From: Planctomycetota bacterium
GTDB lineage: Bacteria > Planctomycetota > B15-G4 > JADJEK01
Assembly: GCA_016213895.1 (NCBI GenBank)
Contig: JACQZJ010000042.1
Location: forward strand, 1 to 47,689
Length of the DNA: 47,689 nt
Direction: 5' to 3'
The notes beneath the pieces are model-generated. The model was not told the origin of the DNA. It was given only the letters and a program-made list of their open reading frames with translations, and did not search any database. The translations under genes and the position numbers were made by a program. Shown piece by piece: positions 34,137 through 47,302 of the stretch (its first letter is position 1; each line of letters starts with the position of its first letter).

Positions 34137-35335
34137 AGAAGTGGCCGCGTGTGTGGGCTGAAGTGGACCTGTCGGCGATCTCGCACAACTTGGCGGTGAT
34201 CAGGAACCGCCTCAGGGGCCGGCGCAGGATCATGCTCGTGCTCAAGGCGGACGCTTACGGCCACGGCGCCATCGCCGTGGCGCGGCACGTGCTCGCGCGC
34301 GGCGAAGCGCAGGCCTTCGGCGTGGGCGACTCCGAGGAGGCGCTGGAGCTGCGCCAGGCGGGCGTCGACGCGCCGATCCTCATCCTCGGCGCCATCGTCG
34401 ACGGCGAGATGAAGGAGGTCATCCAGCACGACGTCGCGGTGTGCGTGCACTCACGCAGCCGCGTGCGCCTGCTGGAGCGCGAGGCGCGGCGCCAGGGCAG
34501 GAAGTGCCGGGTGCACGTCATGGTGGACACCGGCATGGGACGGCTCGGCCCGTTCCCGGAGACGGCCCTCGAGGTCGCGCGCGCCGTGGCCGCTTCCGAG
34601 TGGCTCGAGCTGGAGGGCATCGCCACGCACTTCTCCAGCACGCAGAGCGCCGACGACTCCTTCACCCGGCAGCAGCTCGTGCGCTTCAGCGAGTTCCGCA
34701 AGAGCGTGCAGGAGGCCGGGATCCCGCTGCCGATCTGCCACGCCGCCAACAGCGGCGCCGTGCTCTTCGAGGAGCAGAGCGCCTTCGACCTGGTGCGCGT
34801 CGGAGCCGCCGTCTACGGCATCTTCGCGCGCCGCGACGGCGACGCCAGCCAGCTCAGGCCGAGCCTGTCGCTGCACACGCAGGTGATCTACCTGAAGGAC
34901 GTCCCCTCCGGCACGCCGATCAGCTACAACCGGCTGTTCACGACGCGGCGCAAGACGCGCATCGCGACCCTGCCGATCGGCTACAACGACGGTTTGAGCT
35001 ACGGTCTCTCGAACCGCGGGCACGTCCTGATCCGAGGCAAGCAGGCGCCCATCGTCGGCGCGGTTTCCATGGACTACTGCATGGTGGACGTCGGGGAGGT
35101 GCCGGGCGCGCGCGCCGGCGACCCGGTCACGGTGATCGGCGCCGACGGCACGGAGAGCATCACCGTGCCGCAGATGGCGGAGATGCTCCACACGGTTCCC
35201 TACGAGATCACCTGCCGCCTGGGCAGGCGGGTCAAGCGCGTCCATCTCCCCGCGAGGAAGCACCCGTCGCTCGCGGCCGCGGTCGGACCGCGCGAGGAGC
35301 AGGTCCTCGCGGCCGAGCGGGTCGCGGAGCATTGA
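34133..35335 (+). CDS. alr: Alanine racemase
   Basis: A 400-residue PLP enzyme that makes D-alanine for peptidoglycan. The cofactor lysine is in LKADAYGHG. Other family points are the DTGMGRLG strand, the CHAANSG loop, VRVGAAVYG, the catalytic Tyr in PISYN and the VSMDYCMVDV segment near the C-terminal domain. It overlaps tsaB by ATGA and its TGA shares one base with the ATG of the AsmA-like gene. Together with glmM it gives this operon a cell-wall theme. Confidence 0.94.
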   Translation: MKKWPRVWAEVDLSAISHNLAVIRNRLRGRRRIMLVLKADAYGHGAIAVARHVLARGEAQAFGVGDSEEALELRQAGVDAPILILGAIVDGEMKEVIQHDVAVCVHSRSRVRLLEREARRQGRKCRVHVMVDTGMGRLGPFPETALEVARAVAASEWLELEGIATHFSSTQSADDSFTRQQLVRFSEFRKSVQEAGIPLPICHAANSGAVLFEEQSAFDLVRVGAAVYGIFARRDGDASQLRPSLSLHTQVIYLKDVPSGTPISYNRLFTTRRKTRIATLPIGYNDGLSYGLSNRGHVLIRGKQAPIVGAVSMDYCMVDVGEVPGARAGDPVTVIGADGTESITVPQMAEMLHTVPYEITCRLGRRVKRVHLPARKHPSLAAAVGPREEQVLAAERVAEH

Positions 35336-38300
35336 TGGTCCGGCGCCTCGTCAAAGTGCTGGTCGCGCTCGCCGCAGCCTGCGCGCTGCTCCAGGGCGCG
35401 GTCTGGGTGCTCGAGGCGCGCGGCTTCTTCGCCGCGAGGATCCGCGCCGTGCTGGCGCGCTATGCTTCCGGCGCGATCGAGGTCGGCGGCGCCGACCTGG
35501 ACCTGCTGTCTTTCACCGTGCGCGCGCGCGACCTGAAGCTCGGCCCGGCGGACGGAGACGGCGGGAGCCTCGTTCTGCCCAGCGCCGAGTTCCGCCTGCC
35601 GCTCAGCCTGGCAAGGGGCGGCGACGTCATGCCGGAGCGGGTGGATGTCGTCGCGCCGCTCCTGCGCCTGCGCGAGCGCGCCGGCGGCGGCTTCTCGCCT
35701 CTCGACCTGTTGAAGCCCTGGGTGCCCACGGCGGAAGTGCCGGTGGTGGCCGTTTCCGCCGGGAGCATCATCTTGGAGGGCGAGGGCCCGCTCAGCGCCC
35801 TGCTCGACGGGTTGCTGCGCGCGGACCTCGAGCGCCGCATCGAGGACGTGCGGTTCGTGACCTTCCCGCAGCCGCCTGCCTCGTCCGAGCTGATCGGCCT
35901 GAGCGGGACGCTGGCGCTTCCCGGCGCCGGGGCGGTCTCCCTGAGCGGAGGGCTCGCCCGCGACCAGTCCTTTCGCCTGACGGCCGGCCTGCGCGGGCTG
36001 GATCTCGCCGGCGAGCGGCTTCTCGCCGCGCTCAACCCGCGCCTGCGCGCCTTCCTCGCCGGCCACGCGGTGCAGGGGACGATCGACCTCTCGGCGACCA
36101 TGGAGGGCGCGGTCAAGAGCGGCGCGGCGGCCGGCGCGGCCGAGGCGGAAGCGCCCGGCGTGCGCGCGCTCCTGGCGCTGCGCGACCTCTCCTTCCAGCA
36201 CGAAGCTCTCGCCGCGCCCATCTCGGCCCCGCGCGCGGAAGCCTTTTTCGACGGCTTCAGCCTGCGCCTGCACGAGGTCCGCATCCCCAACGGAGCGTCG
36301 GCGCTGGTCGCGGACGGCGTCTGGCACGACGTGCTGCATGACGGCGAGTGGCGCCTCACGCTCGACGCGCCCTCGCTGACGCGGCAGGATCCGCTGGTGC
36401 AGGCGCTCGTCCACCCCGGGATCCGCCAGGCGATCGACGACTTCAGCCCGGAAGGGTCCTGTGCGTTCTGCTGCGAGGTCACGCGTCCGGCCGGCGGCGG
36501 CGAGCTGGCGGCGCTCTGGCGCATCGCGCCCATCGCCGCCAGCGCCTCGTACGCCGGCCACGCGGACGCGGAGCGCCCGGGCCATTGGATCGGCTTCCCC
36601 TATCGCCTGCGCGATCTGACGGGCGAGATAAGCGGGGAGGGCGCCCTGGTGCGCATCCGCTCCCTGCGCGGCCGCCACAACGGCGGCGGCCATGCCGTGA
36701 TCGATGGGTTCGTCGACGCGCGCGCGCAGGGCACGGCCTACGAGGTGCGCGTGACCGGCGACGCCGTGCCCGTCGACGCGGAGCTGCAGAACGCGCTGGA
36801 GCGCGCCGCGCCGGGCTCGGGCGCCGTGATCGACCGGTTCGCCCCCGAAGGCGCCGTGGACATCGACGTGATGGCGTGCGCCTCGCTTGCGGACGAGGAC
36901 GCGACGGTGCGCGGCCGCGTGACCGCGCGCGGCGGGAAGGTGCGGCTCGCAGACTTCCCGCTGCCGCTCGGCAACGTGGCCGGGGCCGTGGAGTTCGACG
37001 GCGACCTCTACCGCATCGTGGGCGTGACCGGCGAGCACGGCGAGACGCGCGTGCACGTCGCCGGCACGGTCGACGCGCGCGGCGCGGACGTCGGCCTCGA
37101 CCTGCGGATCAGCGCCGCCTCCCTGCAGGCCGACGACGCCGAGTTCCGCGCGGCGCTCGAGCGCGCGCTCGCGGATGCGCCCGCGGACTGCCGCGGTCTC
37201 TTCTCCCTGCTGAATGTCTCAGGTTCCTTCGACCTCGAGCTCGAGATCTTGAAGGAGCCGGGAGGCGAGACGCGCTTCCGCGCCGTCATCTTTCCGCGCG
37301 ACATGGAGATCGTTCCCTCCTGGCTGCCCATCCCGGTGAAGGGCGTGTGGGGACGCGTCGTGCTCGGCAACCTGCACGACCGCGATCGCGGCGACACGCG
37401 CTTCTACGCGCACCTGGACCAGCTGCGCGGCCGCCTGGGCGAGGCCGAGGTCCTGGGATGGGGACGGCGGGGCGAGGGCATGGAGGAGTCGCTGCATCTC
37501 GTGGGGCGGAGCGTGCGCCTGTCGGACGCCCTGCTCGAAGAGCTCGTCGCCGCGGCTGGGGAAGCGGTCGAGCGCGAGGGACGGCCGGCCCTGGGCATGC
37601 TGCGCGGCGTGTCGGCGTCCGGCGACGTCTCGTTCCATTACCGGCACGGCGCAGCGCCGGGGCAGGAGCCGGGCGGAGACACGCTCGATCTGCGGCTCGA
37701 GGGCGTGGCCTGCGCGTCCGACGTGCTGCCTGGGGGGGGGCTGCGCGAGCTCACGGGCAGGGCGCTGGTGGACTTCGCCGCCGGCCAGCTCGACCTCTAC
37801 GGGCTGGACGGGCGCCTCGCCGACCCGCTGGGCAGGGTGGGGTCGGAGCACCTGCGGCTCAGCCTGGGGGAGTCCTGCGTCCATCTCTCGGGCGACATCG
37901 ACCTCGACGCCAAGCCGTTCTCCCCGGAGCTGTCGCCCCTCGTTCCGCCGGGACTGCGCGACTTCCTTCGCTCGCGCCAGCCCTCCGGGAGCTTCCGCTC
38001 GCGGCTGTCGAGCTTCGACGCGGAGCTGCTCTGGCCCGGCGACGGCCGGCCCGCGGAGCTGGGCGGCATGTCGTTCGCGGGCGAGGCGGAGTTCACCGAC
38101 TGTCGCATCGGCCGGCCGCTGGCGCTCAGCGGCATCAGCGGGCGGCTCGGCCTATCGGGCAGCGGCTCTCTCGCGCCGCAGGGTGAGTACCGCATCGAGG
38201 GGAGCCTCAGCAACCTCGCGCTGCAGGTCGGCGTCCTCACGTTCCACGGCCTCGGCGCCGACCTGTCCGCGACCAGGGACGTGGTCGAGGTGACCAACCT

Positions 38301-38994
38301 GGGCGGCCGCTTCGCCGGCGGCGTGCTGCCGGCGCAGGAGAACTACGTGCGCGTCGAGACCGCGCCGCAGGGCCGGATCGAGGGCAACCTCACCGTGCGG
38401 GACGCGGACCTCGCGCTCCTGGCGCGGGAAGTGGTCCAACTCCCGGGCGAGATCAGCGGGCGGGTCACCCTGGAGTTCGGCTTCCAGGGCGCGGGGGAAG
38501 GCCTGGGCGGCGTCGGCGGCGGCGGGACGATCACCATCGAGGACGGACGCCTCTGGGAGCTGCCGCTTTTCGCCAGGCTCTACGAGTTCAGCCTCGGGCT
38601 GGCCGTGGCAGCGGACGAGAAGCCGACGTTCCAGCAGGGCCGCATCGACTACCGGCTGGCCGGCGGCATGCTGGTGCTCGACCGCTTCGAGCTGAAGGCG
38701 CCGGTCGCGCGCGCTCCCGTGGGGCTGACGCTCTCCGGCCGCGGCGTGGTCGGACCGACCGGCGTCGACCTGCGCGTGGTTCCTCAGGTGATCTCGCTCA
38801 GGCTGCCGTTTCTCTCGCCGGCGATCGACCAGCTCAAGCGCGGCCTGATCAACTACCGCATCTACGGCCCGCTGGCGAATCCCAGGGTCTCCTACTGGAA
38901 CGCCGCCATCGACGTGATGGCTCCCAACCAGGACGTGACGCGCCTGCCGCGTCTTGCCCCGAGGAAGGCGGCCGACTGGGGCCGGCGCTTCTGA
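35335..38994 (+). CDS. Large AsmA-like/YhdP-type envelope protein
   Basis: A 1219-residue protein with one N-terminal membrane helix (residues about 5-25) and a very long beta-rich body. The opening segment (ASGAIEVGGADLDLLSFTVRARDLKLG) and the C-terminal part (VDLRVVPQVISLRLP, then KRGLINYRIYGPLANPRVSYW) match AsmA-like proteins such as YhdP, which bridge inner and outer membrane and are thought to move phospholipids. The start is chosen at ATG 35335 because it abuts the alr stop and gives the helix; an open frame extends upstream without homology. Such a protein supports a two-membrane cell plan. The exact subfamily (YhdP, TamB or DUF3971) is not certain. Confidence 0.82.
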   Translation: MVRRLVKVLVALAAACALLQGAVWVLEARGFFAARIRAVLARYASGAIEVGGADLDLLSFTVRARDLKLGPADGDGGSLVLPSAEFRLPLSLARGGDVMPERVDVVAPLLRLRERAGGGFSPLDLLKPWVPTAEVPVVAVSAGSIILEGEGPLSALLDGLLRADLERRIEDVRFVTFPQPPASSELIGLSGTLALPGAGAVSLSGGLARDQSFRLTAGLRGLDLAGERLLAALNPRLRAFLAGHAVQGTIDLSATMEGAVKSGAAAGAAEAEAPGVRALLALRDLSFQHEALAAPISAPRAEAFFDGFSLRLHEVRIPNGASALVADGVWHDVLHDGEWRLTLDAPSLTRQDPLVQALVHPGIRQAIDDFSPEGSCAFCCEVTRPAGGGELAALWRIAPIAASASYAGHADAERPGHWIGFPYRLRDLTGEISGEGALVRIRSLRGRHNGGGHAVIDGFVDARAQGTAYEVRVTGDAVPVDAELQNALERAAPGSGAVIDRFAPEGAVDIDVMACASLADEDATVRGRVTARGGKVRLADFPLPLGNVAGAVEFDGDLYRIVGVTGEHGETRVHVAGTVDARGADVGLDLRISAASLQADDAEFRAALERALADAPADCRGLFSLLNVSGSFDLELEILKEPGGETRFRAVIFPRDMEIVPSWLPIPVKGVWGRVVLGNLHDRDRGDTRFYAHLDQLRGRLGEAEVLGWGRRGEGMEESLHLVGRSVRLSDALLEELVAAAGEAVEREGRPALGMLRGVSASGDVSFHYRHGAAPGQEPGGDTLDLRLEGVACASDVLPGGGLRELTGRALVDFAAGQLDLYGLDGRLADPLGRVGSEHLRLSLGESCVHLSGDIDLDAKPFSPELSPLVPPGLRDFLRSRQPSGSFRSRLSSFDAELLWPGDGRPAELGGMSFAGEAEFTDCRIGRPLALSGISGRLGLSGSGSLAPQGEYRIEGSLSNLALQVGVLTFHGLGADLSATRDVVEVTNLGGRFAGGVLPAQENYVRVETAPQGRIEGNLTVRDADLALLAREVVQLPGEISGRVTLEFGFQGAGEGLGGVGGGGTITIEDGRLWELPLFARLYEFSLGLAVAADEKPTFQQGRIDYRLAGGMLVLDRFELKAPVARAPVGLTLSGRGVVGPTGVDLRVVPQVISLRLPFLSPAIDQLKRGLINYRIYGPLANPRVSYWNAAIDVMAPNQDVTRLPRLAPRKAADWGRRF

Positions 38995-39065: not shown

Positions 39066-39195
39066 GCCAGCGCGGCGCATTCGCCGCCGTTTCGCGCGGC
39101 GCAGAGCACGGACGGAAGCGACGCGGCGGCGGGCGCGGCGGGCAGGGCGGGGCCCGGGTCCCGCGCACGAGGTCCACGCAGTGGGAGTGCCGAGC

Positions 39196-40269
39196 ATGCT
39201 GCACGCCGTCATCATGGCAGGGGGAGCGGGGACCAGGTTCTGGCCGATGAGCCGCGCCGCGCTGCCCAAGCAGATGCTGGCCCTCGTGACCGAGCGGCCC
39301 CTCTTGGCGGACACGGTGGACCGGCTCGAGGGTCTCGTCCCGGGCGAGCGGGTGCACGTCATCACGAACGCCGCCTACGCCGACTCGGTGCGCGCCCTCC
39401 TGCGCGGCGTGCCGGCGCACCAGGTCGTGGCCGAGCCGTGCGGCCGCGACACGGCGCCGTGCATCGGGCTTGCCGCAACGCTGATCTCGCGGCGGGATCC
39501 GGCGGCGGTCATGGCGGTGCTGCCGGCGGATCACGTGGTGCATCCGCCGCAGGTCTTCCAGCAGGCTCTGGCGCGCGCGGCCGCGGTCCTCGAGGAGCGC
39601 GCCGGCGCGCTCATCACCTTCGGGATCACGCCGACGCGGCCGGCCGTAGGCTACGGCTACATCGAGCGCGGCGCCGAACTCGGACGCCTCGACGGCGTCC
39701 CCTTCTTCAAGGTGGACTCCTTCCGCGAGAAGCCGAACGCGCGCGTCGCGCGCGACTTCCTGGCGGCGGGCAGGTTCTCGTGGAACGCCGGCATCTTCGT
39801 CTTCCGCGCGCAGGCCATCCTCGAGCGCATCGAGCGCCACCTGCCGGAGCTCGCCGCGGCCCTGCCCGCGCTGGCGGATGCCTACGTGCAGCAGGGTGCG
39901 ATCCCCGAATCCGCCTACCGCCGCCTGCCGCGCATCTCGATCGACTACGGCGTGTTCGAGCGGGACGAGGACGTGGTGATGCTCGAGGCGTCGTTCACCT
40001 GGGACGACGTCGGCTCCTTCGCCGCCCTGGAGCGCGTCCTGCCCAAGGACGCCCAGGGGAACTGCGGCGTGGGCCTCTCCACCCTGCTCGACGCCCGCCG
40101 CAACATCGTCGTGTCGGGCCGGAACCACCGCATCGCGTTGATCGGCGTCGAGGGGCTGATCGTGGTGCACAGCGACGACGCCACGCTCGTGTGCCGGGCC
40201 GAGGACGCCGAGCGCGTGAAGGAGCTGGTCAACCTGCTGCAGTCGAAGGGGCTCGCGGACTTGCTCTAG
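39196..40269 (+). CDS. manC: Mannose-1-phosphate guanylyltransferase
   Basis: A 357-residue nucleotidyltransferase. The N-terminal GTP loop is VIMAGGAGTRFWPMSR followed by LPKQ. Other family motifs are the EPCGRDTAPCIGLAA strand, LPADHV, FREKPN and WNAGIFVFR. It makes GDP-mannose for glycans, which fits the O-antigen ligase at 5628. The C-terminal phosphomannose isomerase domain of long ManC proteins is absent. A GTG at 39181 would add five residues; ATG 39196 is favoured by the family start. Its stop lies 9 bases from the convergent CBS-protein gene. Confidence 0.9.
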   Translation: MLHAVIMAGGAGTRFWPMSRAALPKQMLALVTERPLLADTVDRLEGLVPGERVHVITNAAYADSVRALLRGVPAHQVVAEPCGRDTAPCIGLAATLISRRDPAAVMAVLPADHVVHPPQVFQQALARAAAVLEERAGALITFGITPTRPAVGYGYIERGAELGRLDGVPFFKVDSFREKPNARVARDFLAAGRFSWNAGIFVFRAQAILERIERHLPELAAALPALADAYVQQGAIPESAYRRLPRISIDYGVFERDEDVVMLEASFTWDDVGSFAALERVLPKDAQGNCGVGLSTLLDARRNIVVSGRNHRIALIGVEGLIVVHSDDATLVCRAEDAERVKELVNLLQSKGLADLL

Positions 40270-40278
40270 CCCGCTCCC

Positions 40279-41616
40279 TCAGGCCTCGTCAGCGCCTTCC
40301 TGCCCCGAGGCTTGCTCGACCGCGCGCACCTCCACGCGCTTCACGCGGCGCTCATCCGCTTCGAGGACCTTGATCTCGACTCCCTCCAAGACCAGCGTCT
40401 CGCCGGCCTGCGGCACGCGTCCGAGGACCGAGGAAACGAACCCGCCGACGGTGTCGAAGTCCTCGCTCTCGGGCAGTGCGATGCCCAGGGCCTCGTTGAC
40501 CTCGTCAATGTGCACGCGTGCGTCCACGCGGGCGTGGCCCGGAGCGAGCAGCTTGAGCTCGCGGCGTTTCCTGCTCACGTCGTACTCGTCGTCGATCTCG
40601 CCGACGATCTCCTCGAGGATGTCCTCGATGGTGATCAGGCCGGAGGTGGCGCCGTACTGGTCGACGACGATGGCGATGTGCAGGCGGTTCTCGCGGAACT
40701 CCTGCAGCAGCCTGCTGACCTTCTTGTCCTCCAGCACGTAGTACGGCTTGCGGCACACCTCGCGCACCGGCTGGTTCTGCGCGTCGATGTCGGTCAGCCG
40801 ATCGACGACGTCGCGGATGTAGAACACGCCGATGATGTGGTCGCTGTCTCCCTCGCCGACGGGCAGCCGCGAATGCCGCCTTTCGGCGGCGACGCGCAGG
40901 GCCTGGTAGACCGGCGTGTCCGCGTCGACCCAGCTGATGTCGGCGCGCGGCGTCATCACCTCGCTGACCTCGAAGGCCCTGAGCTCGACGACGTTCTCGA
41001 TCATGTCCGCCTCCTCCTCGCCGACCACGCCCTTGCGCTCCCCGGCGGCCACGGTGGCGATGATCTCGTCCGTGATCGCCTCGTCCGCGGCCGCGGGATC
41101 AGGACGCCCGGCGATGGAGTTGAGCAGGCGCGCCAGCCCGAGGAAGGGCGCCGCCAGCGGCGAGAGCGCGAGTCCGAGGACATGCAGCGCGGGCAGGAGC
41201 GCCGCGAAGCGCTCCTCGCCGACGGCGCGCGCCACGGAGCGCGGCAGGACGTGGCACAGGGGCACGACGCACGCCGCGCAGAGGAGGGCGGCGAGCAGCA
41301 GCGGGCCGGCGGCGAAGGGATCATGGGAGGCGAGGAGGCGCGCGCTGAGCAGCAGCAGGAGCGCGGCGAGCAGCGCCTCGGCGGCCGCCTGAACCAGCGC
41401 CAGGGCGAGCCTGGTGCGGTCGCGAGCCTCGAGGCGGCGCGCCCAGCGCTCGCGCGCCGCTTCCTCGGGCAAGCCATGCAGCAGTCGCGCCGCGGAGAGG
41501 GAGTCCAGACCCGTTCGGCAGGTGGCCGCCGTGCTGGCGAGGGCGGCAAGCGCCACGCCCAGCACGAAGAGATACGGTCCTTCCGGCAGCGAAGAGCCGG
41601 GATCTCCTTGGATCAA
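40279..41616 (-). CDS. CorC/HlyC-type CBS-domain membrane protein
   Basis: A 445-residue protein with TTG start at 41616, preceded by GGAG about 12 bases upstream. Three to four membrane helices (about 14-165) replace a full DUF21 domain. Then come the segment EEADMIENVVELRAFEVSEVMTPR, two CBS domains (about 215-335, including RHSRLPV and QYGATSGLITIEDILEEIVG) and a CorC_HlyC domain to the end. The family is linked to Mg/Co efflux in relatives, though substrate is often unknown. It has its own promoter candidate inside the end of the sensor-like gene upstream. Confidence 0.87.
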   Translation of the reverse strand: MIQGDPGSSLPEGPYLFVLGVALAALASTAATCRTGLDSLSAARLLHGLPEEAARERWARRLEARDRTRLALALVQAAAEALLAALLLLLSARLLASHDPFAAGPLLLAALLCAACVVPLCHVLPRSVARAVGEERFAALLPALHVLGLALSPLAAPFLGLARLLNSIAGRPDPAAADEAITDEIIATVAAGERKGVVGEEEADMIENVVELRAFEVSEVMTPRADISWVDADTPVYQALRVAAERRHSRLPVGEGDSDHIIGVFYIRDVVDRLTDIDAQNQPVREVCRKPYYVLEDKKVSRLLQEFRENRLHIAIVVDQYGATSGLITIEDILEEIVGEIDDEYDVSRKRRELKLLAPGHARVDARVHIDEVNEALGIALPESEDFDTVGGFVSSVLGRVPQAGETLVLEGVEIKVLEADERRVKRVEVRAVEQASGQEGADEA

Positions 41617-43248: not shown

Positions 43249-43460
43249 CTTGATCCTCGACCGTTCGGGCAGGGGCGGTCGCGGCGTCCTCCGTCCTTGC
43301 CCGGACGGGACGCGCGCCGCAGTCGTTCCGTTATCGAGAGGAAGGGCAGCCTCTCTTGACGGACTTGCCGCGAATCCGCCGTTGCGGCGGAGCGGGATCG
43401 GGTCCGCGCCGCGCGAGCGCTCGCGCGCGGCGGGGCCGCCGGCGCTACAATCCCTTCCTC
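43249..43460. other. Divergent intergenic region with hairpins and an 18-base palindrome
   Basis: The gap between the sensor-like gene and hutI holds three symmetric elements: GAGAGG/CCTCTC at 43336-43355 (8-base loop), TCCGCC/GGCGGA at 43375-43391 (5-base loop), and a perfect 18-base palindrome CGCGCGAGCGCTCGCGCG at 43410-43427. The last lies upstream of the hutI -10 candidate and could be an operator. GC-rich sequence yields such palindromes by chance more often than average. Confidence 0.4.
43446..43451 (+). promoter_or_regulatory. Possible -10 element for hutI, near-leaderless
   Basis: TACAAT lies 9 bases before ATG 43461, so the transcript would start within a few bases of the ATG. There is no Shine-Dalgarno sequence before this ATG, which agrees with leaderless translation. 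Confidence 0.4.
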
Positions 43461-44732
43461 ATGGAAGCATGCGACCTGCTCATCCGGAACGCCTCCGAGG
43501 TGGTGACCCTCGCCGGCGCGGCGCCGCGGGTGCGCGCGGCCCTGGACCGGCCGGAGGTCGTTGTCCAGGGCGCGGTCGCGGTGGCCGGCGGGAAGATCGT
43601 CGCGGTGGGGAGCGCCGCGCAGGTCGAGGCGCGCTTCCGGCCGGCCGCGGTCCTGGACGCGCAGGGCGGCGCGATCGTGCCCGGCTTCGTCGACGCTCAT
43701 ACCCACCCCGTGTTCGGGGCGACGCGCGAGGCGGAGTTCGACATGCGCCTGCGCGGCCGGACGTACCAGGAGATCAGCGCGGCGGGCGGCGGCATCTTCT
43801 CCTCGGTCCGCTCGCTGCGCGCCGCGAGCAGCGCGGAGCTGGCGCGGCTGGTGCACGCGCGATTCGACCGCTTCCTCACGGCCGGGACGACCACGATCGA
43901 GGCCAAGTCGGGCTACGGGCTGAACCGCGAAGACGAGATCCGCTCGCTGGAGATCCTGCGCGACGCGGCGGCCGAGCATCCCCTGGAAGTGGTGCCGACG
44001 TTCCTCGGCGCGCACCAGGTGCCGGAGGAGTATTCCGCGGCGCGCAGCGAGTACCTCGACTTCGTCATCCAGCGGGTCTTGCCGGAGGTGCGCGCGCGCC
44101 GGCTCGCCGTGGCGTGCGACGTCTTCTGCGACCAGGGGGCCTACACCGTGGCCGAGTCGCGCCGGCTGCTCGACGCGGCGCGGCGGCAGGGCTTCGCTCT
44201 GCGCGTGCATGCCGACGAGCTGGCGCCCGTCGGCGCGGCGGAGCTCGCCGCGGAGCTTTGCGCCGCCTCGGCCGACCACTTGTGCAGGGTGAGCGACGCC
44301 GGCATCGCCGCGCTCTGCGCGGCGGGCACGACCGCCGTGCTCCTGCCCGGAACGGTGCTGTCCTTGGGCGCGAAGGCGTTGCCGCCGGCACGCCGCCTGA
44401 TCGACGAGGGCGCGATCGTGGCGATCGCGAGCGACTTCAACCCGGGCACGTCGTACCTGCTGTCCATGCCGTGCGTGATCGCGATCGCGTGCACGCTGCT
44501 GCGCATGACCGTGGCCGAGGCGCTGGCCGCGGCCACGATCAACGCCGCCTGGTCGCTGGGCATCGCTGATCGCATCGGTTCGATCGAGGAGGGCAAGCAG
44601 GCCGACCTGCTCCTTCTGGAGCACCCGTCGCACCTCTTCCTGGCCTACCAGCTCGGGGAGAACCCGGTGGCCGCGGTCGTGAAGCGCGGCCGGGTCGTGT
44701 ACGAGCGGCCCGCGCTGGAGATCAGGCGCTGA
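43461..44732 (+). CDS. hutI: Imidazolonepropionase
   Basis: A 423-residue amidohydrolase of the histidine degradation pathway; it opens imidazolonepropionate to formiminoglutamate. Motifs: metal-binding DAHTHPVFG, the substrate segment RGRTYQEISAAGGGIFSSV, EAKSGYGL, FLGAHQVPEEY, HADELAP and SDFNPGTS, all typical of HutI. ATG 43461 is chosen by family start and the nearby -10 hexamer; the frame is open further upstream without homology. hutH, hutU and a formiminoglutamase are not in the window. The gene is followed 20 bases later by the first of two paralogous exported proteins. Confidence 0.94.
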   Translation: MEACDLLIRNASEVVTLAGAAPRVRAALDRPEVVVQGAVAVAGGKIVAVGSAAQVEARFRPAAVLDAQGGAIVPGFVDAHTHPVFGATREAEFDMRLRGRTYQEISAAGGGIFSSVRSLRAASSAELARLVHARFDRFLTAGTTTIEAKSGYGLNREDEIRSLEILRDAAAEHPLEVVPTFLGAHQVPEEYSAARSEYLDFVIQRVLPEVRARRLAVACDVFCDQGAYTVAESRRLLDAARRQGFALRVHADELAPVGAAELAAELCAASADHLCRVSDAGIAALCAAGTTAVLLPGTVLSLGAKALPPARRLIDEGAIVAIASDFNPGTSYLLSMPCVIAIACTLLRMTVAEALAAATINAAWSLGIADRIGSIEEGKQADLLLLEHPSHLFLAYQLGENPVAAVVKRGRVVYERPALEIRR

Positions 44733-44752: not shown

Positions 44753-45961
44753 GTGCGGCATCTCACCACGTGCTTGTTGCTTGCCGGGGCGCTGGCCGCG
44801 GGCGGCCGCGCGGCCTTGCAGGAGAGCGGCGAGGACCTGTGCGGCGACTGCCACAGCACCGGCAAGGTCCCGCACGCGCACGACTCCGCGCTCCTGGAGC
44901 TGGAGAAGGACGCCATCTTCTGTTCCTGCTTCATGGACCAGGACCCGGAGGCGCTCGGCATGGACTGGATCGTCTGTCCCGACTGCCGCACGCCGTCGGC
45001 GCAGGCCAGGGCCAGGAGCGAGTTCGAGATGGAGTACGGGCGGCGCAAGAGCTGGCTGGAGGAGCGCCGCGCGAAGGTGGACAAGCACGCGGGCGAGGAA
45101 GTCCTGCACATCAAGACCAGGCACTTCGTCATCGCCTGGGACATCCCCAAGGTCAAGGTGGACCATCAGGTCCTCAAGGCGCACGAGGCCATGCACCTCT
45201 ACGCGCGCCGGATGGAGGATCTCTACCGGGTGATCCAGGAGGTGCACGGCATCGGCGAGACCGCCATGCACACCGGCGTCTACCACCTCTACCTCTTCGA
45301 GTCGCAGAAGGTGGCGGAGCGGGTCGGTGGCTACGTTCTAGACGGCATCGGCGGCGGCGGCGCCAAGTCGCTGATCGGACCCAACTCCGCGCATCTGCGC
45401 TGGTGGCGGAAGGAGGACCTGCCCGATGACGAGCGTTTCCACCAGGCGCTGGCGCACTCCGTCAGCCACCTCATTCACAACGACATCGACCAGTTCAACG
45501 AGTGGCTGGCCGTGCGCTACGGCTGGGCGTACGAGGGGCTGGCGCACTTCATCGAGATCCGTCTGTTCGGGCCGCCCATCACCTGGTGCCACCAGGAGAC
45601 CGGCGGCTTCGAGCACTGGAAGGGCAAGGACTGGGAGGCCAACGTCAAGAAGGCGGTGCTGGCCGGCACGCAGCCCGCCTTCCAGGAGATCATCACCAAG
45701 GCATCGGACGTGCTCACTCCCATGGAGCACCAGTTCTCGTGGTCGTACATCGACTACCTGATGTGGCTCGACCCCAAGAAGATGCCGCGCCTGCTCGGCC
45801 TCATGAAGGGACCGCAGCTGCCGGTGCGGGACGCGCTGCAGCAAGCCTACGGGCTGACCGTTGGACAGTTCGTCGACGGGTGGGAGGAGTTCGTGCGCAC
45901 GGAGTACTCGATCAAGCCGGTGAAGGGGCCGCGGCCGCGGGCGCCGCGCGCCGGCGGCTGA
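44753..45961 (+). CDS. Exported CGDCH / gluzincin-like protein, paralogue 1
   Basis: A 402-residue exported protein from GTG 44753, with GGAG 8 bases before it and a signal peptide of about 22 residues. A small N-terminal cysteine domain has Cys30 and Cys33 followed by His34 (CGDCH), and Cys75 and Cys78 (CPDC). The pattern fits either a four-Cys zinc site or a single c-type heme. The C-terminal half looks like a peptidase MA-type gluzincin: HSVSH at 235-239 and, 21 residues later, the Glu in YEGLAHFIE (Glu261), the spacing of the second motif. The catalytic Glu of HExxH is Ser here, so peptidase activity is doubtful. A near-identical layout occurs in the next gene. I do not recognise the family. 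Confidence 0.75.
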   Translation: MRHLTTCLLLAGALAAGGRAALQESGEDLCGDCHSTGKVPHAHDSALLELEKDAIFCSCFMDQDPEALGMDWIVCPDCRTPSAQARARSEFEMEYGRRKSWLEERRAKVDKHAGEEVLHIKTRHFVIAWDIPKVKVDHQVLKAHEAMHLYARRMEDLYRVIQEVHGIGETAMHTGVYHLYLFESQKVAERVGGYVLDGIGGGGAKSLIGPNSAHLRWWRKEDLPDDERFHQALAHSVSHLIHNDIDQFNEWLAVRYGWAYEGLAHFIEIRLFGPPITWCHQETGGFEHWKGKDWEANVKKAVLAGTQPAFQEIITKASDVLTPMEHQFSWSYIDYLMWLDPKKMPRLLGLMKGPQLPVRDALQQAYGLTVGQFVDGWEEFVRTEYSIKPVKGPRPRAPRAGG

Positions 45962-45970
45962 CGGAGCGCG

Positions 45971-46018
45971 CCGGCCGCACGGCCGGATCCAGCCGGGGAG
46001 CGGGCCGGGCGGGCTCCC
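45971..46018 (+). terminator. Two hairpins between the tandem paralogues
   Basis: CCGGCC/GGCCGG at 45971-45986 with a 4-base loop, then GGGAGC/GCTCCC at 45996-46018 with an 11-base loop followed by TT. They may end or attenuate transcription between the two paralogues. The T-tract is minimal, so this is only a possible terminator. A TAGAGT hexamer at 46042-46047 may then start the second gene. Confidence 0.35.
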
Positions 46019-46081
46019 TTCGCGCCGGCACGGGTCCGATGCTAGAGTGGTGCCACTCCCTTTCCGGATCATGGAGTCCCG

Positions 46082-47302
46082 TTGGTGCGCGCTTGCGTTC
46101 TCGCGCTTGTCCTCGCGCTTCACGCCGCCTGCCTTGCGCAGGAGCCCGGCGAGCCCCTGTGCGGCGATTGCCACACGACCGGCAAGATCCCGCACCCGCA
46201 GAAACCGGCCGTGCTGGAACAGGAGCAGGGCGTCGAGTATTGCTCGTTCTGGATGGACAGCGATCCCGAGGCGCTCGCTCTCGACTGGGTCGTCTGCCCC
46301 AACTGCCTGACGCCGTCCGTGCAGCAGAAAGCGCGGCTGGAGTTCGACGCGGAGTTCGCGCGGCGCAAGGCGTGGCTGGAGGAGCGCCGGGCGAAGGTGG
46401 ACAAGGTGACGCGCACCGAGAGCGTGCACATCCAGACCAAGCACTTCCTCATCGCCTGGGACATTCCCAAGATCAAGGTCGGGCGCAAGATCCTCAAGGC
46501 GCACGAGGCGGCGCACCTGTACATGCAGAGGGCGGAGGGGCTCTTTGCCTACATTCTCGACCTGCACGGCATCACGGAGGCGCAGACGCTCGGTACGCGC
46601 TTCGAGATCTACATGTTCGAGAGCGAGCGCGCCGCGCGCACCATTGCCCCGATCATGACGGACCTGCCGCTGCAGGGCGATCCCAAGGTGCAGATCGTGG
46701 GGCCGAAGATCTCGCGCATGGTCTGGTGGGACGACCCGGCCAAGATCATCGATGACGAGCACCGCCACCAGATGTGCGTGCATTGCCTGAGCCACCACAT
46801 CCATCACGACATCTGCCTCGGCCAGTACACGTTCTGGCTGTTCAAGAGCTACGGCTGGATGTACGAGGGACTGGCCTTCTACCTGGAGCACCGGATGTTC
46901 GGGCCGCCGAAGACGACGTGTTCGCAGGAAGCCGGCGGATTCGGCAACTACCGCGACAAGTCCTGGGAGGCGCTGGTCAAGAAGGACGTGATCGACGGAA
47001 CCTACCCCAACTTCCAGGACGTGATCAGCAAGGCCGCGGACGCGCTCACCGACCAGGACCGCCGCTTCGCCTGGTCGTACGTCGATTACTTGATGTGGTT
47101 CGACCCGCACAAGATGCCGCAGCTGATCACGGCCATGACCGGCGAGCAGCTTCCGACGCGCGACGCGCTGCGCAAGGCCTACGACATGAGCGTCGGTCAG
47201 TTCGTCGATGGATGGCTGGAGTTCGTGAATACCGAGTACTCGACGCGGCCGTCTAAGGGACCAATTGTGCGGCAGCCGAGGGGCACGAAGAAGGGAGAGT
47301 GA
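46082..47302 (+). CDS. Exported CGDCH / gluzincin-like protein, paralogue 2
   Basis: A 406-residue paralogue of the preceding protein. TTG 46082 is chosen because GGAG lies 5 bases before it and a signal peptide (MVRACVLALVLALHAACLA) follows. The N-terminal domain keeps CGDCH (27-31) and CPNC (72-75), and also Cys54. The DPEALALDWVVCPNC and SWLEERRAKVDK-like stretches closely follow the first copy. The gluzincin-like half has HCLSH at 234-238 and Glu262 in YEGLAFYLE, 24 residues after the second His; the usual catalytic Glu is Cys. Both metal-ligand His and the distal Glu are kept while the general base is lost, in the same way as in copy 1. The pair arose by tandem duplication. Function unknown. 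Confidence 0.75.
   Translation: MVRACVLALVLALHAACLAQEPGEPLCGDCHTTGKIPHPQKPAVLEQEQGVEYCSFWMDSDPEALALDWVVCPNCLTPSVQQKARLEFDAEFARRKAWLEERRAKVDKVTRTESVHIQTKHFLIAWDIPKIKVGRKILKAHEAAHLYMQRAEGLFAYILDLHGITEAQTLGTRFEIYMFESERAARTIAPIMTDLPLQGDPKVQIVGPKISRMVWWDDPAKIIDDEHRHQMCVHCLSHHIHHDICLGQYTFWLFKSYGWMYEGLAFYLEHRMFGPPKTTCSQEAGGFGNYRDKSWEALVKKDVIDGTYPNFQDVISKAADALTDQDRRFAWSYVDYLMWFDPHKMPQLITAMTGEQLPTRDALRKAYDMSVGQFVDGWLEFVNTEYSTRPSKGPIVRQPRGTKKGE

Follow-up and report, generated by a model that had tools for sequence, protein, structure and literature searches.

We found that two adjacent genes directly behind hutI in the window (the whole 47,689-nucleotide stretch of planctomycete contig JACQZJ010000042.1 that was analysed) encode tandem paralogues of what would be an old, phylum-wide family of predicted-exported proteins. 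Taking the evidence together, these proteins are probably remodelled pseudo-gluzincins, predicted to be exported, with a predicted His-His-Cys metal site and an ancestral hutI-(ftcD) locus. In outline, an N-terminal four-Cys zinc-ribbon-like domain would be followed by a C-terminal gluzincin-fold domain, in which the general base may have been lost at, or close to, the root of the family, from HExxH to HNxxH to HSxxH and other states, while the canonical Glu ligand would be free to vary. Since the two helix His appear to have been kept and a conserved Cys to have been gained after the third-ligand helix, we predict a His-His-Cys metal site. Descriptions of pseudopeptidases are mostly of single cases from animals and fungi. 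The family described here is bacterial, is found in half of the genomes sampled from its phylum and has a site changed as a set, with the catalytic Glu out, the third Glu free and a Cys in.

The tandem genes and their N-terminal domain

The hutI gene (imidazolonepropionase; 43356-44732, forward strand; Pfam Amidohydro_1 and HUTI_composite_bact) ends 20 bases upstream of copy 1 (P0001; 44753-45961, forward strand), which has a GTG start and encodes 402 aa, and is a conserved neighbour of the family. The tandem paralogue, copy 2 (P0002; 46082-47302, forward strand), has a TTG start and encodes 406 aa. The two proteins are 53% identical to each other, and both are also found in a sister species of the same genus, at 86% and 88% identity. 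Their base composition is of the coding type (GC3 of 0.95 in copy 1 and 0.91 in copy 2, versus a GC2 of about 0.42), and length, codon-position composition and conservation together indicate that both ORFs are real genes. Furthermore, the family is encoded by 14/14 genomes of the class and by 148 of the 294 sampled genomes of the phylum, so the observation is not due to chance. Scanning the region for promoters and terminators returned nothing above chance. Elsewhere in the window, a 1517-aa ORF (34441-38994) is without a Pfam match.

Both N-termini are signal-like, in agreement with the first-pass annotation, which had described a tandem pair of exported proteins. In copy 1 the segment spans 44753-44815 (forward strand; VRHLTTCLLLAGALAAGGRAA) and corresponds to a hydrophobic segment in the family, and in copy 2 it spans 46082-46141 (forward strand), where the model has a helix at residues 2-18. 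Of the 115 testable family members, 111 have a hydrophobic 12-mer ahead of their first Cys, and, judged by sequence, the N-termini of copies 1 and 2 and of nearly all relatives look like Sec signals.

The zinc-ribbon-like domain holds two Cys pairs, all on the forward strand: CGDC (44840-44851) and CPDC (44975-44986; seen in both the translation and the family alignment) in copy 1, and CGDC (46160-46171) and CPNC (46295-46306) in copy 2. The Cys of the first pair are present in 119-120 of about 122 ungapped family members. This domain had been missed in the earlier annotation, as had a literal HExxH motif (HEAMH/HEAAH) and the Cys after the YEGLA helix, both described below. In paralogues of the type found on contig C91 (L004, L030 and L031), a DnaJ-like multi-CxxC arrangement stands in place of the CxxC...CxxC domain, and L014 and L027 have lost the Cys of the domain partly or wholly. 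Binding of c-type haem was set aside, the CXXCH and RING matches (E of 0.07-0.2) being at chance level.

A gluzincin fold without the catalytic Glu

On the AlphaFold2 models (pLDDT of 88.5 for copy 1 and 93.0 for copy 2), both proteins belong to the gluzincin (peptidase MA) fold, and both show the gluzincin order of elements, namely a sheet, the active-site helix and then the Glu helix. In copy 1, HSVSH (45455-45469, forward strand; H235 and H239) occupies the place of HExxH within helix 226-244, and YEGLA (45530-45544, forward strand), whose Glu261 is at the canonical third-ligand position, opens helix 257-272. In copy 2, HCLSH (46781-46795, forward strand; H234 and H238) lies in helix 225-243 and is followed by YEGLA (46862-46876, forward strand; Glu262). 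The second His and the YEGLA Glu are 22 residues apart in copy 1 and 24 in copy 2; a check of the translations reproduced both these spacings and the motif positions given in the first-pass annotation. Model confidence is low after C279, with pLDDT below 50 at residues 281-284 of copy 1 and 283-285 of copy 2.

For both copies, Foldseek returned the peptidase domains of M9 bacterial collagenases as the best PDB matches (probability 1.00), followed by M1 and M30, at TM-scores of about 0.4, which indicates kinship at the level of the fold. The proteins share 10-15% identity with MEROPS M9 and differ from it in missing the catalytic Glu, which places them in the same clan, not the same family. Foldseek matches to anthrax lethal factor, at a probability of about 0.1 or less, were meaningless. 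When a profile of 60 relatives was compared by hhalign with two HExxH proteins of the same genome, the match ran along the whole domain (pairwise E of 2e-7 and 4e-6), with HxxxH falling on HExxH and WxxEG on WxEG. The structure prediction and profile comparison proposed in the earlier annotation recovered a gluzincin fold, and models, Foldseek and hhalign agree with its comparison to peptidase MA-like gluzincins.

Pfam and NCBIfam scans of the two window proteins gave nothing above cut-off, Peptidase_MA_2 (PF13485) and DUF1570 (PF07607) included. Among 26 relatives, weak matches were found to Peptidase_MA_2 in nine (best E of 5.8e-5) and to DUF1570 in nine (best 0.0018), and by profile, that is, by these weak Pfam matches and the full-domain hhalign alignment, the domain is the same. 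The family differs from both models in reading H[NSHMQCAIRG]xxH in place of HExxH and GLAH in place of GLAE, in its new Cys after the second helix and in its extra N-terminal Cys domain, and neither window protein matches either model. A PDB sequence search with one of the proteins found no match, and a profile search of the PDB gave weak M1 matches at the motif only (E of 0.16 and up), which support the fold alone.

The absence of the general-base Glu is established across the family. Among 153 non-redundant relatives, all from within the phylum, the residue at the HExxH-Glu position is N in 89, S in 16, H in 13, M in 7 and Q in 6, with C (5), A (5), I (4) and R (3) as rarer states; HN..H is seen most often in the phylum as a whole, and the one relative with Glu is a long-branch outlier. 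This count among homologues, which the first-pass annotation had suggested, bears out its remark that HSVSH and HCLSH lack the general base. Its further proposal, that each copy had lost the Glu independently, is contradicted: with Glu in only 1/153 relatives the loss would have been early rather than separate in each copy, and the copy-2 orthologue in genome G009 reads HSVSH, so that HCLSH would be a later S-to-C change within the copy-2 lineage.

On the models, both proteins are pseudopeptidases in the sense of a peptidase fold minus an essential catalytic residue, and we infer from the sequences that members of the family would be without peptidase activity. Known metallopeptidase pseudopeptidases, ADAM, M14, M1 and M13 examples among them, share with these proteins the loss of the general base, with varying retention of the metal ligands, as far as the available part of a review describes them, and the cases in its Table 2 are nearly all eukaryotic (PMC11266112). 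The same part of the review describes no comparable bacterial family, gained Cys or catabolic gene cluster.

Literal HExxH motifs do occur at residues 144-148 on the first helix of the domain, as HEAMH in copy 1 (45182-45196, forward strand; H144 to H148) and as HEAAH at the equivalent position of copy 2 (46502-46516, forward strand). That these are the real catalytic motif is hardly credible, and we rejected them as the true active site: the motif is there in both copies and H148 is kept in 140/153 relatives, but Glu145 is found in just 49/153, and the profile alignment places the canonical HExxH not on the first helix but at 235-239.

Co-conservation of the His pair with a Cys

The His pair (H235 and H239) is intact in 131 of the 153 relatives, in line with the earlier suggestion that HxxxH is kept by selection. 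Conservation among homologues, named in the first-pass annotation as the test of its metal site, was however divided, with the YEGLA Glu present in 89/149 (about 60% of the family). Residue E261 shows no association with the His pair, being present in 78/131 proteins with both His and in 15/22 of the rest, and in six hut-linked f2 proteins it is replaced by Ala, Val or Thr in 6/6, with both His kept in 5/6.

A scan of every well-filled alignment column identified C279 as the strongest correlate of the His pair, with Cys in 127/131 proteins that have both His and in 1/22 of the rest (Fisher test, 7.7e-21). It lies 18 residues after the YEGLA Glu in a conserved loop, within CHQE in copy 1 (45587-45598, forward strand; C279 and E282) and CSQE in copy 2 (46919-46930, forward strand; C280 and E283). 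Four proteins have both His and no C279, with Asp in two and Thr in two. E268, C279 and E282 are conserved in the family, and H234, H238, E269 and C280 (P0002 numbering) are invariant in an alignment of 60 diverse members. In the sequences and hhalign alignments of the same-genome HExxH relatives examined, a Cys at this position is absent. A disulfide between C279 and C57, the odd N-terminal Cys, was rejected, C57 being Ser in f2 proteins that keep C279.

The same association is seen on the trees. With FastTree, 6/10 branches show C279 and the His pair changing together in one direction, and with a quick IQ-TREE run 4/10 do; opposite changes occur in neither tree, and in the latter E261 changes together with the His pair on 0/25 branches. 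Strongly supported branches provide only 6 independent pairs, too few for the phylogenetic sign test to reach 0.05 (median p-value 0.06-0.125). Within one family, the G005 protein has Tyr, Lys and Ser for His, His and Cys. In a subfamily of eight loci (L118, L117, L127, L132, L134, L126, L123 and L128), FNxxQ/T/I/H replaces HNxxH and the Cys is Asp, Thr or Asn; the site is gone as a set and the fold residues stay.

These results make it very unlikely that the proteins are zinc-binding pseudopeptidases that keep the canonical His-His-Glu site after independent loss of the base Glu in each copy. In the two window copies H, H and the YEGLA Glu are indeed correctly spaced and sit in the expected helices, but 152/153 relatives have no Glu at the general-base position, HCLSH arose from HSVSH, and the YEGLA Glu is dispensed with in the hut-linked f2 proteins and does not follow the His pair as C279 does. 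Retention of three ligands, as first proposed, finds no support as a trait of the family.

From the co-conservation of His, His and Cys we infer a new predicted metal site, in which the three residues would bind one metal in a single site. The HxxxH on the first helix is perhaps also part of it: H144 and H148 are both present in 110/131 proteins with the His pair versus 2/22 without it, an association that is weak on the tree. Co-loss of the Cys with the His pair is equally expected of a metal site and of a Cys-His catalytic pair, though the latter would leave the retention of both i, i+4 His unexplained. Together the relatives offer a natural series for following the change of the site, from HExxH-E to HNxxH-E-C, HSxxH-A-C and complete loss.

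The main rival is that the proteins are active hydrolases, with a deformylase-like His-His-Cys centre or as Cys-His thiol hydrolases, acting on a small exported histidine-related substrate, which we consider unlikely. Peptide deformylase binds its metal through the two His of the HExxH helix plus one Cys (PMC7683392), C279, E268, E282, H148 and R153 are conserved here like catalytic residues, and the genes are linked to the formimino-group genes hutI and ftcD. Deformylase, however, retains the HExxH Glu that is absent here and has another fold, so that the likeness is one of analogy only. The residue at 236 is free to vary (N, S, H, M, Q, C, A, I, R) and therefore offers no replacement base, and the His pair and the Cys are gone together from entire subclades, as would be the case for a dispensable activity. 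The Cys of peptide deformylase is N-terminal to its HExxH motif.

The hutI/ftcD locus

In 38 genomes, from 8 families, we observed the family gene on the same strand as hutI and downstream of it, and with two genomes that have ftcD only the linked genomes number at least 40, from 29 genera, a lower bound since linkage was scored only within the fetched flanks of mostly incomplete assemblies. Similarity to the hut-linked window proteins guided part of the sampling, so that the linkage frequency is biased with respect to the whole family. In 19 genomes the family gene has ftcD upstream, in most cases as an intervening gene after hutI (G008, G009, G117 and others), and for hutI and ftcD within the flanks 57/57 genome-gene relations are upstream and on the same strand. 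A place next to hutI is conserved in the family and is not due to chance. The duplication next to hutI, which the first-pass annotation had left unexplained, is real and common to G000, G007 and G009 (family f1), while G008 has a single copy at the hutI locus; the adjacency itself is no oddity of the window.

The hut-linked genes are all contained in a single clade of 103 (support 98) that spans the order of the window and that of G292, which indicates that the hutI link is older than the split of the two orders; the hut-linked members would thus have inherited the hutI-(ftcD) locus since before at least two orders diverged. Family f45, with about 25 members and no linkage in the fetched flanks, seems to have lost it. 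Unlinked paralogues also exist, such as two copies on G000 contig C91 (48568-49662 and 51416-52591), which lie on opposite strands about 2 kb apart and off hutI, and are also found in the sister genome (G007 C136). Near hutI, a CNNM/CorC gene divergent from it and a ManC-like nucleotidyltransferase gene are found across the order (window 39181-41616; L142-L147).

It is highly improbable that the domain is a metal-free structural or binding module whose link to hutI is slowly eroding inherited gene order. Some members without H235, H239 and C279 still keep the fold residues, the CNNM/CorC and nucleotidyltransferase neighbours are also common within the order, and f45 lacks the linkage; against this, most relatives keep both His, the family gene is always downstream of hutI on the same strand, and the pairing persists over two orders where other neighbours differ (L149 is without CNNM).

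The window genome carries ftcD and urocanase elsewhere, indicating that the histidine-degradation pathway is present; FtcD converts formiminoglutamate to glutamate and formimino-folate. Our best guess is that the protein is exported and binds metal, with a cleft derived from a peptidase, that it is no longer a classical peptidase, and that it would be expressed together with histidine degradation. A role in the uptake or use of histidine from outside the cytoplasm, such as the binding of histidine or metal-histidine, is a tentative idea and the weakest step of this explanation. Counting against it, the cytosolic hut intermediates are out of direct reach for an exported protein. Doubtful in higher degree is an exported His-His-Cys metalloenzyme, possibly involving the second HxxxH on the neighbouring helix, that would act on a histidine-derived or formyl/formimino compound as an unrecognised part of histidine use in the phylum. 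Literature searches on planctomycete DUF1570 and on hutI together with ftcD returned nothing relevant and no paper on function; for this family, the conserved place behind hutI/ftcD offers a direct functional handle in growth on histidine. In G005, the genome also missing the His pair and the Cys, a degenerate FTCD-like gene with a weak Pfam match (L147:7327-8088) lies between hutI and the family gene.
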